A stretch of DNA of 64,000 nt from Pedobacter chitinilyticus (GTDB taxonomy: Bacteria; Bacteroidota; Bacteroidia; Sphingobacteriales; Sphingobacteriaceae), in NCBI RefSeq assembly GCF_003313385.1, contig NZ_QMHN01000006.1, positions 1 to 64,000 of the forward strand, written 5' to 3'. The first letter of the stretch is position 1; each line of letters begins with the position of its first letter. Below are positions 30,747 through 36,818 of the stretch, in pieces. The position numbers and the translations under genes were made by a program. Under the pieces are notes generated by a model. It did not search any database and was not told where the DNA came from. It worked only from the letters and a program-made list of their open reading frames with translations.

Positions 30747-31112
30747 CTATTGATTTTCTGGTTTCTCAATCAGGTCAATTATCTCTTTAAGTTCGGCCGC
30801 ACTGATCTTTTTGTCTTTGGCAAAAAACGCAACCAGTTCTTTATACGAATTTTGAAAATAGTCGTTCACAAAACCGTTCATAAAACGCTTTTTATAGTCA
30901 GCTTCCTTTACTTTAGCGCTATAGCGAATGGCATTTGCATAACGCTCACCTTTTAGGAAGCCCTTACGTTCCAAATTTTTGATGGTTGAAGCCAAAGTCG
31001 TGTATGGAGTTTTTGGTTCTGGCATAGCATCCATAAAGTCCTTAATAAACCCTGCTCCTACTTGCCAAACGGCTAGCATTGCCTCTTCTTCTTGCTGTGT
31101 TAGTTTCTCCAT
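30747..31112 (-). CDS. BlaI/MecI family repressor 2
   Basis: The 121-residue winged-helix protein has LTQQEEEAMLAVWQVGAGFI and TPYTTLASTIKNLERKGFL (helix-turn-helix and wing). The C-terminal part, DYFQNSYKELVAFFAKDKKI, serves dimerisation. It is the first gene of a two-gene unit with the M56 protease. An operator lies at 31121-31145, 9 nt before the ATG. Confidence 0.88.
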   Translation of the reverse strand: MEKLTQQEEEAMLAVWQVGAGFIKDFMDAMPEPKTPYTTLASTIKNLERKGFLKGERYANAIRYSAKVKEADYKKRFMNGFVNDYFQNSYKELVAFFAKDKKISAAELKEIIDLIEKPENQ

Positions 31113-31145: not shown

Positions 31146-31371
31146 ACTAATTTACAAACATGCAAGGGCTTAGGTGTTAATTTGTGTTAAGGAGAATGCA
31201 AGCTACCCGAACATCTATTTTTCATTTTTGAAGCGCAGTTTTTGTACGGGAGTTAATGGAAAGTCCCGCCATTCGTTTTACTCGTTAGCACGCTACGCCT
31301 GCTAACTCGTGCTCACTACTGTCGGGGCTATCGGGCATTTTTAATGCAATTATCTTCTGAGTTTAAAGATT

Positions 31372-31832
31372 TCTCCTATCGTCGAAATGACAAAAATAAC
31401 GGACAGAAAATAATGGGAAAATCTTGCAACCTATGAATAGAAACAGTTAGAAATGTCACCCTTTCAGGGTTCCTTTATCACTTGCATAGCTTGTTAGAAT
31501 AATTTCACCACTTCGTGGTTAGGTGATACGTTTAAAGGATTAATTTTTCGGATTTGCACGGTCACAAAATCAAGCTCCAAAGAAATGTTAGATTAATAGC
31601 ACCAATCTTGGTTAGGCATAATATCCAAAGTATTGATTTCACGAAATCATAAGACAACAAGTCCGAAGGACTGACATTATTCTAGAAAATAATATTTCAG
31701 TCAATAAACCACGAAGTGGTGACATTATATTTATTGCACATATTCCATTAAGTTTCTTTTAATGTTGTTCGCCTAGCATATCGAAAGATTTTACTTCGTA
31801 GCTGCTACGCGGTCTCCTATCGTCGAAATGAC
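31372..31832. repeat. Two 20-bp direct repeats flanking the hairpin array
   Basis: Identical 20-bp sequences at 31372-31391 and 31813-31832, 441 bp apart. A related sequence with an insertion occurs at 47228-47262, so it is a dispersed repeat. Confidence 0.75.
31451..31727. repeat. REP-like hairpin array with GAA loops
   Basis: Four hairpins share a plan: 5-bp stem, GAA loop, then TGACATTAT (one reads TGAAATTAT). Two lie on the minus strand (31458-31470, 31507-31519) and two on the plus strand (31660-31672, 31708-31720). Stem sequences differ (ACCCT/AGGGT, ACCAC/GTGGT, AGTCC/GGACT) while pairing is kept. Positions are symmetric about 31589. Confidence 0.75.
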
Positions 31833-31881
31833 GAGAAAATAGTACTGTAGAAATGACGGTGAAGGTGATTCGAAATAGCGA

Positions 31882-33249
31882 TTACTTAAATATAAAACTC
31901 CTATTGTCTTTTTTCCAATCAGGACCAATGGCTGTTTCTAACCAGAAAGGCTTTTTCAATTCGGTTTTCTTTTGCCAAATTCCATCCGACATTTGTAAAT
32001 CATTGCCCATTTTTACAAAACCTGCAACAATACTAGCACCTTCTACCTGATTGTTTTGCATTTTCAAGTTTTTCGGTTCATCTTGGGTAACCAATAAAGT
32101 TGTTGGGTTAATAACGTAGTTATTGCTAATGTTAACGCCGTCAGGAGCTACTGTTCTATCGTTATCCTTCCCCGAACCTAACACAAAAGCTTCTCTGGCA
32201 CTTACAATAACGTTGTTTTGAATATCTGCATTTTTCACCTGCCAATAATCGCTTAGTGCTGGTTTTTCATAAGCATTCATCACAGAAATCGCGGAACGTA
32301 ATGTTCTTCCTGCCACTTTGTACAAGTAATTTCCGTGCACTTTTTGGTTTTCACCAATAAGGCGTATTCCGCCGCTGTTGGTGACATTGTTCGCAATAAA
32401 ATAGTTACTGCTCACTTCAGAGTTATTGCCATGTCTAAAAGTAACTGTACCTGCACATTCGTAAAACAGGTTATTCATAATTTTATTAAAACCAGATTTG
32501 ATAGAAATGATTTCTACCTCGCCATCGCATTTATCAAAAATATTGTTCTGCACCGTTGCATAAGAATCGTTCATTGAAAAAGTGCTTGTCCCTATGCGGA
32601 TGGTTTCACCACCATTAGCCCCTAATTCTGGTCTAGGACCAAAATAATTATGGTCTATTTGGTGATAATTTGGTTTATCATCTAACCAAACCACTAAAGT
32701 CGTTCCCTGGTGTGCTTTTCCTGTAATGGAACAATGATCAACCCTATTATGATTTCCGTAAAGCGATACCCATTTATAGTCTAAAGTTTTGTCGCTCGGA
32801 TTATAATTTTCGATGCTGGTATTGGTTAAGCGACTGTTAGAAGTGGCTTTAGTAAAAATCACCACGTCATCTTTTAAGGAAGACCCATTTTTGAAAAAAA
32901 GTCCGTCGACCACTAGCCATTCACCATCAATTTTAAGGTTAGAGTTGCCGGATAGAATCACACTTCCCTTGGTTTCTGCAATCAGTGTAATGGGTTTTTC
33001 GGCTGTTCCTTTTCCTTTAAAGTTAATGATTTGGCTCTTCCATTCGCCCGATTTCATGATCACTTTATCGCCAGGAGCCAATTTTAATTCATTAAGTTCT
33101 GCTGCGTTGGCAATGGTATATGTTTTGTCGCTGTTGGTTGCTTGTTCTTCTACCTTTTTAGTCAGCGAATCTGCCTCAACTGCTTTTGCACAGCTGCTAT
33201 AAGAAAGTCCGCAGATAAGCACTAAACCAGCATAAAAATTCAATTTCAT
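31882..33249 (-). CDS. PL6 family alginate lyase, lipoprotein
   Basis: The 455-residue right-handed beta-helix starts with a lipoprotein signal ([20 protein letters not shown]). The catalytic pair of PL6 is visible: Lys251 in EIISIKSG and Arg272 in TFRHGN, 21 residues apart, the same spacing as Lys220/Arg241 of AlyGC as I remember it. Glu244 and Glu246 (GEVE) are the expected calcium ligands, and [11 protein letters not shown] precedes them. PL6 enzymes cleave alginate by beta-elimination. One-domain architecture. It is the last gene of the SusC-led unit, 12 nt after the beta-helix lipoprotein. Chondroitin B cleavage is a family alternative, but the neighbours favour alginate. Confidence 0.88.
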
Positions 33250-33261
33250 TTTAAAATATCT

Positions 33262-34470
33262 TTAGTATAAATTATCGTAAAAAACGAGCGCTTCATCGTA
33301 AGTAGTGGCTAATCCCGTTGAACTTACCGCCGAGCTGATGCTCACCACACCAGTCCAAGGTGCTGTAGCGCCATACGCTTCCCAACATCTGTAAACTACA
33401 TGAGTGGATAGATTAACATTGTTATTTCCACCGTATAAAATCTTAGTACCGTCTAAGCCTAATTTGCTAGACATGATGGCTCTTTTTTCGGTAACAGTTC
33501 CAGTTCCTAAAGTTGCAGCATCGGCAGCACTTATTAAGTGCGTACGACCAGTTGGATTAAAACCACTGTGGTGAAAAGCCAAAGCAAATCTTGTACTCTG
33601 ATTCCCGACCGTAGCGTAATTAAAATTGTTTTTCGTCACCATAAAACTGGTTCCAAAGGTCTCATCTCCAGGGTTTACATCATTAAAAACAGGCACTTCT
33701 ACAAAAATTGGATTTACACCTATTCCGTTTACGATGTAGGCACCTGTTGAATTAAAAGTATTGCCGTAAACTACGCCATGGGTAGAATTATCGCCCCTAA
33801 ATCTAATGAATGAACCCGAACAATCTGTAAAGGTATTCTCTAAAATTTTCAATCGTTTAACGCCAAAAGCGCCGTAAATCATATGTGCGGTTGAGCCTAC
33901 TCCAATGTTAGAGAATTGGTTTTGCCTGATGATAATATTATTGGAAGTGGCGTAATGGGCTCCAACAGCACCGTAATACAAATTAGGCATATTTTCAAAA
34001 CGACAATAAGCCACCGTTATGTTTGGACTGCGCTGAATTACTAAAGCATATTCTGATACGGCACCAGTAAATTTTAACCGATGAATCAATATATTTTGGC
34101 AGTTGTTTAGCGACATCAGCTTGGCAATTGATCCCGTAAGCACCGCAGCACCCACGGTATTTGCTTTTAACTGAAGTCTTTTAGTGGCACTTCCAATGTT
34201 CGACAAAGTGATGGTAGAAGTGATATTGTAAGTTCCGTCAGCAAAAACCACATCTACAGCGTTCGTTTGCAGCATGGTTTGTATACCCGACCAAAATGCA
34301 GCATCGAGCGTGGTTGATGGCGTTACATTGACTACGGTAGTTGTTGCTTGCGCCAGTGCTTCTTTCTGCACTTCAACCACAATCTTTTCTTCTTTTTGTG
34401 CTACTACGGCATCTTTTTTACACGAAAAAATTGTCGCGATTAGCAAGGACATTAAAGCATATTTTTTCAT
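33262..34470 (-). CDS. Beta-helix lipoprotein lacking PL6 catalytic residues
   Basis: The 402-residue protein starts with MKKYALMSLLIATIFSC (lipobox, then Lys-Lys) and has a parallel beta-helix of the PL6 style (NNIIIRQNQFSNIG, LKILENTFTDCSGSFIRFRG). Aligning the CxGS turn with the neighbouring PL6 enzymes puts Phe where their catalytic Arg is, and no Lys or calcium-binding Glu pair at the right places. It could be a binding protein or a lyase with another mechanism. It lies between the two PL6 genes. Confidence 0.65.
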   Translation of the reverse strand: MKKYALMSLLIATIFSCKKDAVVAQKEEKIVVEVQKEALAQATTTVVNVTPSTTLDAAFWSGIQTMLQTNAVDVVFADGTYNITSTITLSNIGSATKRLQLKANTVGAAVLTGSIAKLMSLNNCQNILIHRLKFTGAVSEYALVIQRSPNITVAYCRFENMPNLYYGAVGAHYATSNNIIIRQNQFSNIGVGSTAHMIYGAFGVKRLKILENTFTDCSGSFIRFRGDNSTHGVVYGNTFNSTGAYIVNGIGVNPIFVEVPVFNDVNPGDETFGTSFMVTKNNFNYATVGNQSTRFALAFHHSGFNPTGRTHLISAADAATLGTGTVTEKRAIMSSKLGLDGTKILYGGNNNVNLSTHVVYRCWEAYGATAPWTGVVSISSAVSSTGLATTYDEALVFYDNLY

Positions 34471-34493
34471 TGTATGGTTATTTAAGGTTTAAC

Positions 34494-36818
34494 CTATAAA
34501 CTTGCACCCACACCTCCTGCAGCTTTTGTTTTTGACGAAAGCGCTGATCCATCCTTTAAATTAAAATTGAATTCTTTGATATTGACAAACTCTGGCTTAA
34601 TCTCGAAAATTTGCTTTCCAAGTGCCTTATTGTAATACGTATCCACTTTTCCAGATTGATAGAAGTTGCAATGATCCACCAAAATATCGTCCCAACGGAA
34701 CTCTCTAAACTCTAAAGATCTGCCTCCCTGACCGCTGTTAACGAAATTTGTATGAAGCACCCTAGCGTATTGAGCACCCAACAAACGAAGCGCTGAACCT
34801 TGCTCTCTGTTATCCACTTCGTTGATGGTACAATTCTCAATGGTTACAAATGGTCCCAAGGTGCTCTCGTCGTTTCCACCACGATATACATTGATGGCAC
34901 TTCCTAAAATATTGGTAAATACACAGTTTTTCACCACGGTATATTCTGCTCCATAAATGCCTTTATCGTCTCTTTCTTCCGCTAAATTGATTCCTGTTCC
35001 TGAAATATTCCTAAACAATGAATTGGTGATGACCAAGCTATCAGCCAAGGTTGATTTACTACCCTTAAAGCCTGCAAAAGAGCCTTCGTTGTAATCGTAA
35101 AATTCACATCTGTCGATAAAAGCTTTGTAGGGCTTGTTCATCGGCAATTCGGTAGAGCGGATACCACAACGCACATCACCCCCACTACCATAAGCTCCCT
35201 TGAAAGCAATGCCACTTACTTTCAATGTTGCTCCGTTATCAATAGTGATGAAAGCTGGCAGGGTTTTACTGCTCCCGTTCACCAAAATAGGTTTGCTTTT
35301 TAGTTCAGCTGCTGCTCTAATGGTAATCGATTTGTCGACGATAATTTCATCATCAACACTATAAAAACCTGTGTCGGTTAGTTCAATGATATCACCATCG
35401 CTTAATTTGGCTATTGCTCGTTGAATGCTATTGCTTTCTTTTGCACTAATTTTTACAATTTTAGGCTGTGTATTGACCGCTTTTATTTCTTGTTGATACC
35501 AAGATGCACCTACATCTTTCTTTTGCACAAACTTCATTTTCTTTAGTGGCGCTCCATAATCGGCCAGATAAGGAAACGAAATGCCGTTAATGGTTACATT
35601 GGTTGTTTTCTTGTTCACGAAACCTTCCTGCGTAGGCAAATCACCTTGTAAAGCATTGTCTTTAATAGCAATACCGCCATCTTTATTTTCATCTACATAA
35701 AGCGCTTTAACAGGCTGAACCAATAAGTTTTTGGAGAAAATCACGCTTTGCGGAGATAAAGTACGTTCAGCATCTTTACCCGTTCCAAACAATGATGGTT
35801 CACAATTGATGAAAGTATTTCGCTCAATTTTTGCATCAACTACTTGATAATAACGATTGATGAGCGAATTTGGCACCCCATTCATGACCGCTAATGGCGA
35901 ACGAAATGCAGTACCTTTTAAATCTTTAAATACATTATCAAACACATGATGACCTGGATTAATGACCCTAACCCCGCCTGTGAATGGCTTATTATTTCCC
36001 AAGAAAAGATTGCCTTGCACTACATTTTTAGAACCATGCCTCAATACCAAACTTCCTTCGCATTCCACGAAAGTGTTGAAGCTGATGTTGTTTTCTCCCG
36101 ATTTGATGGACACGATCTCTACTTCGCCATTGCATCTTTCGAAAAGATTGTGCACAATTTGGGTTTTGGATGCGGTAAGTGAATATCTGGACACGCCAAT
36201 TCGGATCGTCTCTCCTCCATTAGAACCGAAACGCTGACGACCGTTGAAATAGTTAGAATCGATGCTGTGGTAGTTTTGTTGACTACGCTCATCGTTAAGC
36301 TCGGCAATAATTACTGGTCCAGCGTTAAGCTTATTGGTAAAAGTACAATGGTCAACACGGTTATTCTTTCCCCATAAAGTCACCCAAGAATCGCCTTTAA
36401 AACGTTCTGGCTGACTAAAGTCTTCGATTGCAAATTGAGTGATGCGACAGTTATTTGCCAAGTTATCGTTATCTATCCTAAAATTAACCACATGATCTTT
36501 AGGACTGTAACCACTTTTGAAATGTAAACCTTTGATAATGATGAATTCGCCACCAATCTTAAGGTTAGACTTCCCCGAAATTTGCACTTTATCACCGTTC
36601 TCCGGTTTTACCCAAATTGGTTTTTCTTTAGTGCCTTTACCTGAAACAACTAATTGCACATCATTCCAAACTTTATTTTTAAGCAGAATCACATCGCCAG
36701 GTTTTGCTTTGGCAACCGCTGATTTTAATTCTTGCGGAGTACTTACCAGAACATCGGCGGCTTTTGTAAGCGAGGCAATGAACAGAAGGGCTAAAAAAGA
36801 AATAGGGAACTTTGTCAT
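34494..36818 (-). CDS. Two-domain PL6 alginate lyase, AlyGC-like
   Basis: This 774-residue enzyme has a signal peptide (MTKFPISFLALLFIASLTKA) and two beta-helix domains (about 21-430 and 450-770), the layout of AlyGC, an exolytic poly-guluronate lyase. The active site is in domain one: Glu232, Glu234 (calcium), Lys239 (IVSIKSG) and Arg260 (LVLRHGS), again 21 residues apart. The start of the second domain is IVKISAKESNSIQRAIAKLS. Unlike the two neighbouring products it is not a lipoprotein by sequence, so it is probably periplasmic. The precise end-product preference cannot be read from the sequence. Confidence 0.88.
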   Translation of the reverse strand: MTKFPISFLALLFIASLTKAADVLVSTPQELKSAVAKAKPGDVILLKNKVWNDVQLVVSGKGTKEKPIWVKPENGDKVQISGKSNLKIGGEFIIIKGLHFKSGYSPKDHVVNFRIDNDNLANNCRITQFAIEDFSQPERFKGDSWVTLWGKNNRVDHCTFTNKLNAGPVIIAELNDERSQQNYHSIDSNYFNGRQRFGSNGGETIRIGVSRYSLTASKTQIVHNLFERCNGEVEIVSIKSGENNISFNTFVECEGSLVLRHGSKNVVQGNLFLGNNKPFTGGVRVINPGHHVFDNVFKDLKGTAFRSPLAVMNGVPNSLINRYYQVVDAKIERNTFINCEPSLFGTGKDAERTLSPQSVIFSKNLLVQPVKALYVDENKDGGIAIKDNALQGDLPTQEGFVNKKTTNVTINGISFPYLADYGAPLKKMKFVQKKDVGASWYQQEIKAVNTQPKIVKISAKESNSIQRAIAKLSDGDIIELTDTGFYSVDDEIIVDKSITIRAAAELKSKPILVNGSSKTLPAFITIDNGATLKVSGIAFKGAYGSGGDVRCGIRSTELPMNKPYKAFIDRCEFYDYNEGSFAGFKGSKSTLADSLVITNSLFRNISGTGINLAEERDDKGIYGAEYTVVKNCVFTNILGSAINVYRGGNDESTLGPFVTIENCTINEVDNREQGSALRLLGAQYARVLHTNFVNSGQGGRSLEFREFRWDDILVDHCNFYQSGKVDTYYNKALGKQIFEIKPEFVNIKEFNFNLKDGSALSSKTKAAGGVGASL

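Follow-up and report, generated by a model that had tools for sequence, protein, structure and literature searches.

Results

An intergenic array of four hairpins

The DNA analyzed here, hereafter the window, is a 64,000-nucleotide stretch (G000:C7:1-64000) of a 5.05 Mb Pedobacter genome (G000). The array that concerns us is intergenic and lies between the start of a minus-strand gene at 31112 and the stop of a minus-strand gene at 31882. Three adjoining minus-strand ORFs of 455, 402, and 774 aa occupy 31882-36818; their products appear to resemble secreted polysaccharide-lyase-type proteins, and together they form an apparent carbohydrate-use cluster. The features of the array are listed below, with the sequences of the four hairpins (U1 to U4) given on the strand reading GAA.

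31372-31391, minus strand: left copy of a 20-bp direct repeat of CGTC type, a different family; the related genome G017, whose site lacks the element, has one copy there
31446-31522, minus strand: left half-element (module), hairpins 49 bp apart; covariance model R1, E 2.8e-10, 73.6 bits, the sequence itself being in the model
31458-31470, minus strand: U1, outer hairpin of the left half, ACCCT-gaa-AGGGT; tail at 31450-31457
31507-31519, minus strand: U2, inner hairpin of the left half, ACCAC-gaa-GTGGT; tail GAAATTATTCTAA
31573-31595, plus strand: possible decayed fifth unit at the array centre, AGCTCCAAAGAAATGTTAGAT, suggested by alignment with the related genome G123, which has AATTCCGAAGGACTGCTAGAT
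31657-31732, plus strand: right half-element (module), hairpins 48 bp apart; covariance model R1, E 2.1e-13, 89.4 bits, the sequence itself being in the model
31660-31672, plus strand: U3, inner hairpin of the right half, AGTCC-gaa-GGACT; tail GACATTATTCTAG
31708-31720, plus strand: U4, outer hairpin of the right half, ACCAC-gaa-GTGGT; tail GACATTAT
31813-31832, minus strand: right copy of the 20-bp direct repeat, CGTC type; an extra partial copy lies at 31847-31858

An initial annotation of this DNA had described four units, each with a 5-bp stem, a GAA loop, and a tail, and all four are present. Its account of their layout is likewise accurate, as U1 and U2 point left, U3 and U4 point right, the start spacings are 49 and 48 bp, and the common centre lies near 31589. 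The tail is found as TGACATTAT exactly in both U3 and U4, as TGAAATTAT in U2, and as TGACATTTC in U1, while the stems of U2 and U4 are identical, leaving three different stems within the array. A strict scan of the 64 kb (perfect 5-bp stem, GAA loop, and a tail with ≤3 mismatches) returned exactly 4 units, compared to a mean of 0.17 and a maximum of 2 in 100 dinucleotide shuffles, and a chance origin of the units was rejected on this basis. The tail alone (GAANNNNTGACATTAT, 2 mismatches) occurred 11 times in the window versus 9.8 expected, which is not significant. The significance of the units resides in the combination of stem, tail, and layout, rather than in the tail itself.

When Rfam covariance models were run over 31446-31732, neither Flavo-1 RNA nor any other Rfam family was matched. 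Elsewhere in the window, Flavo-1 RNA (RF01705) is found at 1178-1331 on the plus strand (57.9 bits, over the Rfam gathering score), and a weaker Flavo-1 match, below threshold (31.6 bits, E 1.2e-4), is located just left of the hairpin element at 31258-31333 on the minus strand and is kept in both G123 and G017. It is possible that Flavo-1 is a dispersed repeat in its own right.

The half-element recurs as a dispersed module

A covariance model (R1) built upon 33 half-elements from G000, G017, and G123 identified 12 half-elements in G000 and 32 in G123. The genome search for the unit consensus that the initial annotation had proposed found the unit to recur in G000, and its 12 half-elements present a trait of REP/BIME sequences, namely dispersed intergenic multi-copy palindromes. 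Within each half-element, an inner hairpin is followed by a conserved tail that ends in TTCTAG or TTATAG, then by ~20 nt of intervening sequence and an outer hairpin with a GAYAT tail, and the starts of the two hairpins are 46-52 bp apart. The inverted 2+2 layout occurs in the window, at L014, L084, L095, and at other loci, and solo modules are found as well (e.g., C6:314615-314688). The stem assignment of the window array (ACCAC inner and ACCCT outer on the left, AGTCC inner and ACCAC outer on the right) recurs in other complete copies, and the gap between the two inner hairpins measures 8-60 bp in most complete copies versus ~140 bp in the window. On the strand with the TTC loop, the hairpin foot is TNNC (TGTC, TATC, or TTTC), whereas the foot on the GAA strand ends in AA (alignments A1 and A2); the GT[AG]G tetranucleotide is absent from the 5' hairpin foot. 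A conserved TCTAG/TATAG motif is located 9-13 nt from the inner hairpin, which corresponds to CTAGA/CTATA upstream on the TTC-loop strand. No exact insertion junction was recovered when the window site, L014, and L019 were compared with G017, G141, G144, and G157, or when one G123 locus was compared with G000, because the flanks are mosaics of several repeats.

A Y1 transposase gene is flanked by similar hairpin pairs

The search for a REP-type transposase, also proposed initially, yielded a Y1/IS200-like gene on C5 that is flanked by similar hairpin pairs, one of two strong Y1 transposase matches in the genome. This C5 tnpA gene (G000:C5:509555-510013) is outside the window and encodes a protein of 153 aa that matches PF01797 at 1.4e-25. 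An outer hairpin lies 22 bp from its stop, and the flank on this side holds a right-type module and, farther out, degenerate units of the left type. The counterpart of C5 TnpA in G123 is 91% identical and the hairpin arrangement is kept. The second gene, on C2, encodes a subclass-1.2-type protein 59% identical to C5 TnpA, and downstream of it are its own different hairpins (GACCTT-gaa-AAGGTC and others) in ~4 tandem repeats of some 125-150 bp; the gene and its array (L081:875-1860; G000:C2:562374-563359) are possibly a second, independent system in G000. Both proteins contain an HUH motif (DHIH and DHVH), WQ, and YIxNQxxHH, with the DHIH, WQ, and YILNQEEHH of C5 TnpA including the Y---Q--HH signature of subclass 1.2. 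TnpA copy number in G000 is low, as there is no near-identical second tnpA in addition to the one C5-type gene and the gene that is 59% identical. The dispersed stems of G000 (AGTCC and ACCAC) differ from the stems adjacent to tnpA (AACCC and ACCCC), and apart from the tails the two groups share just the ACCCT outer stem.

Paired hairpins flank tnpA in many taxa

We scanned 700 bp on each side of the genes for 80 relatives of C5 TnpA, mostly from Bacteroidota and Chlorobi/Ignavibacteria, together with metagenome-assembled genomes labelled Planctomycetes, KSB1, and Verrucomicrobia (labels as given). Y...Q..HH is present in 78 of the 80 proteins. The flanks contain 283 perfect GAA hairpins compared to ~2 in shuffles, and the commonest layout is inner(+), outer(+), tnpA, outer(-), inner(-), with full four-hairpin elements continuing from the tnpA flank at several loci (L093 and L095). 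Downstream hairpin pairs have a spacing of 46-54 bp in all 36 of the loci having two. The nearest downstream hairpin lies a median of 8 nt past the tnpA stop codon, while the outer hairpin before the start codon, where found, lies at a median of 14 nt; among the flanks L090-L169, outer hairpins are often 5-14 nt before the start codon and 4-9 nt after the stop. This position of the outer hairpins by the ends of tnpA could couple the expression of TnpA to its own substrate. At about one third of the 80 loci, mostly those of more distant relatives, there is no perfect hairpin downstream of tnpA. Distant relatives keep the geometry with a different sequence, typically GCTCC-gta-GGAGC, and the loop type (GAA or GTA/ATA) tracks the tnpA tree, requiring 5 changes versus 9.4 in shuffles (minimum 7).

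The same arrangement recalls insertion sequences of the IS608 type, whose hairpins are recognized as single-stranded DNA in known systems. IS608-type IS200/IS605 elements share the catalytic family and have subterminal hairpins in one orientation, and IS608 TnpA is the only solved structure found by sequence for the present TnpA and its closest among solved structures. The hairpin pairs could accordingly be the ends of an ordinary IS200/IS605 element, in which case the window copy would be a gutted remnant (MITE): the same-orientation pairs recall left-end and right-end hairpins, and tnpA is bracketed on both sides. We nonetheless consider this origin unlikely. Active insertion sequences have near-identical copies, whereas here each genome has a single tnpA of this kind, with a second gene only 59% identical, and the modules are both repeated on either side of tnpA and dispersed alone.

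Stem pairing is conserved by compensatory change

The initial annotation had read covariation from the stems of the window array. Part of that variation reflects position-specific hairpin types and the window has only three stems, but covariation itself was confirmed on independent sequences. As a fair set, we used 47 regions downstream of the tnpA genes of closer relatives, in an alignment built blind to pairing. The two helices are paired in 90.3% of cells, 9 of 10 pairs changed on both sides, and pairing falls to 43-51% when the partner is shifted by 1-3 columns. Cells changed on both sides number 41 versus 9.1±2.7, a value reached in 0 of 500 shuffles; the relatedness of the sequences inflates these numbers. 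Covariation in two further sequence sets agrees, both of which favor pairing, as one was picked by hairpin scan and the other lacks the few sequences without a visible hairpin. In the set picked by hairpin scan, compensatory change is also evident within hairpin positions, and one-sided (G-U type) changes occupy 3 cells versus 67 for two-sided changes.

The rarity of one-sided changes indicates that a DNA fold fits better than an RNA fold, which bears upon a reading in which the hairpins, whose spread would be incidental, work as RNA (stabilizers of mRNA 3' ends, attenuators, terminators, or autoregulators of tnpA mRNA). The array region does fold well as RNA, with a stability above that of shuffles (z = -3.44), and the outer hairpins are very near both the start and stop of tnpA. 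Set against this, modules occur dispersed, inverted, and in tandem at sites other than the tnpA locus, a 5-bp stem makes a weak terminator, and no Rfam family covers the element. We therefore doubt that RNA function explains the array.

The element co-occurs with tnpA within the genus

Among 146 genomes of the genus, the element is present in all 10 genomes with a tnpA ≥65% identical, a group including G144 and G079 (broken pieces only) and G048 (one stop), versus 3 of the 136 others. The association has a Fisher p of 3e-13, a statistic that ignores relatedness and includes modules adjacent to tnpA that are inherited together with it. The three carriers without a close tnpA are G017 (7 half-elements), G141 (1), and G072 (1, next to a tnpA of its own that is 53% identical). 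For G017 to have 7 half-elements without a close tnpA, loss of the gene is needed.

The outer direct repeats belong to a separate family

The 20-bp direct repeats reported outside the array are perfect at both window sites (TCTCCTATCGTCGAAATGAC), but they are not part of the hairpin unit, as they belong to a separate dispersed CGTC-type family with 41 copies in G000 at ≤3 mismatches. A role as a target-site duplication or as a part of the unit is therefore unsupported, even though G017, at its site without the element, has one copy. They resemble CGTC-tagged REPs in having CGTC/TGTC followed by AT, a class for which Di Nocera et al. (2013, PMC3733652) report no transposase. The CGTC tag and AT of the REP definition were found in the outer repeats, whereas the strict 8-9 bp stem rule missed these copies. 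By strict search, no CGTC-type repeats occur within 600 bp of the 80 tnpA genes, a weak result given that the stem rule misses the imperfect copies of G000. A palindrome of ~68 bp (CGTCATTGCGAGGCACGAAGCAATCT and its inverse) at L019:771-838 (G000:C6) is a further CGTC-type repeat dimer; it is found in many places in the genus and is abundant in relatives.

At the window site, the element is present in G123 and absent in G017, where the flanks are joined by one 20-bp copy. The G017 state is most simply read as the product of recombination between direct repeats, with insertion in the G000/G123 lineage as a possible alternative. G123 also has tandem composites of CGTC-type repeats and hairpin modules (L086, L084, and L265; periods near 163, 358, and 532 bp), which suggests that the two are also co-amplified. 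Like-oriented CGTC-type repeats enclose 3 of the 8 hairpin loci of G000 and several of those in G123, and, together with the G017 site and the tandem composites, this might indicate that the modules are passengers in CGTC-type composites spread by direct-repeat recombination rather than by TnpA, a quite improbable account, as most tnpA-side loci and several dispersed copies are without CGTC-type repeats and the association with tnpA across phyla would be left unexplained. Recombination at CGTC-type repeats may well be additionally active in local amplification and loss.

Discussion

The initial annotation had suggested a REP/BIME-like element, and the recurrence in the genome, the hairpin pairs flanking tnpA, and the covariation all support it. 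The element does not belong to the canonical GTAG type of REP: its stems are 5 bp long, the GT[AG]G foot is missing, and it is built from pairs of hairpins that share one orientation. In our assessment, the array is probably a non-autonomous REP/BIME-like element of two inverted modules, and the subclass 1.2 TnpA-Y1 encoded on C5 is its most likely enzyme. The anatomy of the array, its recurrence, the covariation, the association with tnpA across many taxa, and the co-occurrence in the genus support this reading, and from them we infer TnpA binding, a site of cleavage, and transposition, as well as folding at the level of DNA and not RNA. Several observations count against it, namely the low copy number of the element, the mosaic flanks that yielded no exact junction, the difference in G000 between the dispersed stems and those adjacent to tnpA, and the half-elements of G017, a genome without a close tnpA.

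Subclass 1.2 as published (PMC6006769) resembles C5 TnpA in its motifs (DH[IV]H, WQ, and Y---Q--HH), its low copy number, its occurrence in Bacteroidota, and its similar length (median of 148 aa versus 153 aa for C5 TnpA). In the classification of Quentin et al. (2018, PMC6006769), this subclass has 'no' REP and generally lacks IS200 end structures, whereas hairpin pairs widely flank tnpA here, which we take as a correction to the published description. The automatic screen of 2018 demanded GTAG or GTGG and stems of ≥7 bp (PMC6006769), and would therefore miss the present hairpins. No later description of REPs for subclass 1.2 was found in the openly accessible journal articles searched, and priority is accordingly uncertain. 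The REPtrons (TnpA-REP/RAYT with REP, BIME, and REPIN sequences; PMC6006769, PMC8266576, PMC3116915) are similar in having small dispersed intergenic hairpins, inverted pairs, tandem copies, a single low-copy Y1 transposase gene bracketed by similar hairpins, and several repeat families per genome. They differ in that the present element has 5-bp stems, a TNNC foot in place of GT[AG]G, and a same-orientation hairpin pair ~50 nt apart as its basic module, and in that the present transposase is of class 1 (subclass 1.2), outside the RAYT subclasses. In the case of the CGTC-tagged REPs, the likeness is to the outer repeats, which are separate from the hairpin module.

We propose that when a strand is exposed, e.g., during replication, the hairpins would fold as single-stranded DNA. 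TnpA, as an HUH single-strand endonuclease/transposase, would then bind the stem, the loop, and the conserved foot bases and cleave nearby, with the conserved TCTAG/TATAG motif near the inner hairpin as the candidate region, and the module would be copied or moved to give rise to dispersed copies. IS608 and TnpA-REP (PMC6006769, PMC8266576) provide models for the recognition of a folded single strand in which 5' foot bases guide cleavage, and by analogy TnpA should recognize the folded strand with its 5' foot guiding cleavage. The same-orientation hairpins within each module, as in IS200/IS605 ends, suggest that the module may be a miniature pair of ends. More tentatively, and with somewhat less than even confidence, we suggest that subclass 1.2 TnpA constitutes a separate single-strand-DNA mobilization system of Bacteroidota and neighbouring phyla, situated between IS200/IS605 and REP, whose minimal mobile unit would be a ~75 nt two-hairpin module with a non-GTAG foot and same-orientation hairpins ~50 nt apart serving as miniature left and right ends.

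Subclass 1.2 had been described with neither IS ends nor REPs; our data propose for it a specific probable substrate with a conserved geometry. REP-type systems would thereby gain a new architecture and reach many taxa beyond Proteobacteria, and the natural variation in stem, loop, and foot offers material on how HUH enzymes choose their hairpins and cleavage sites.
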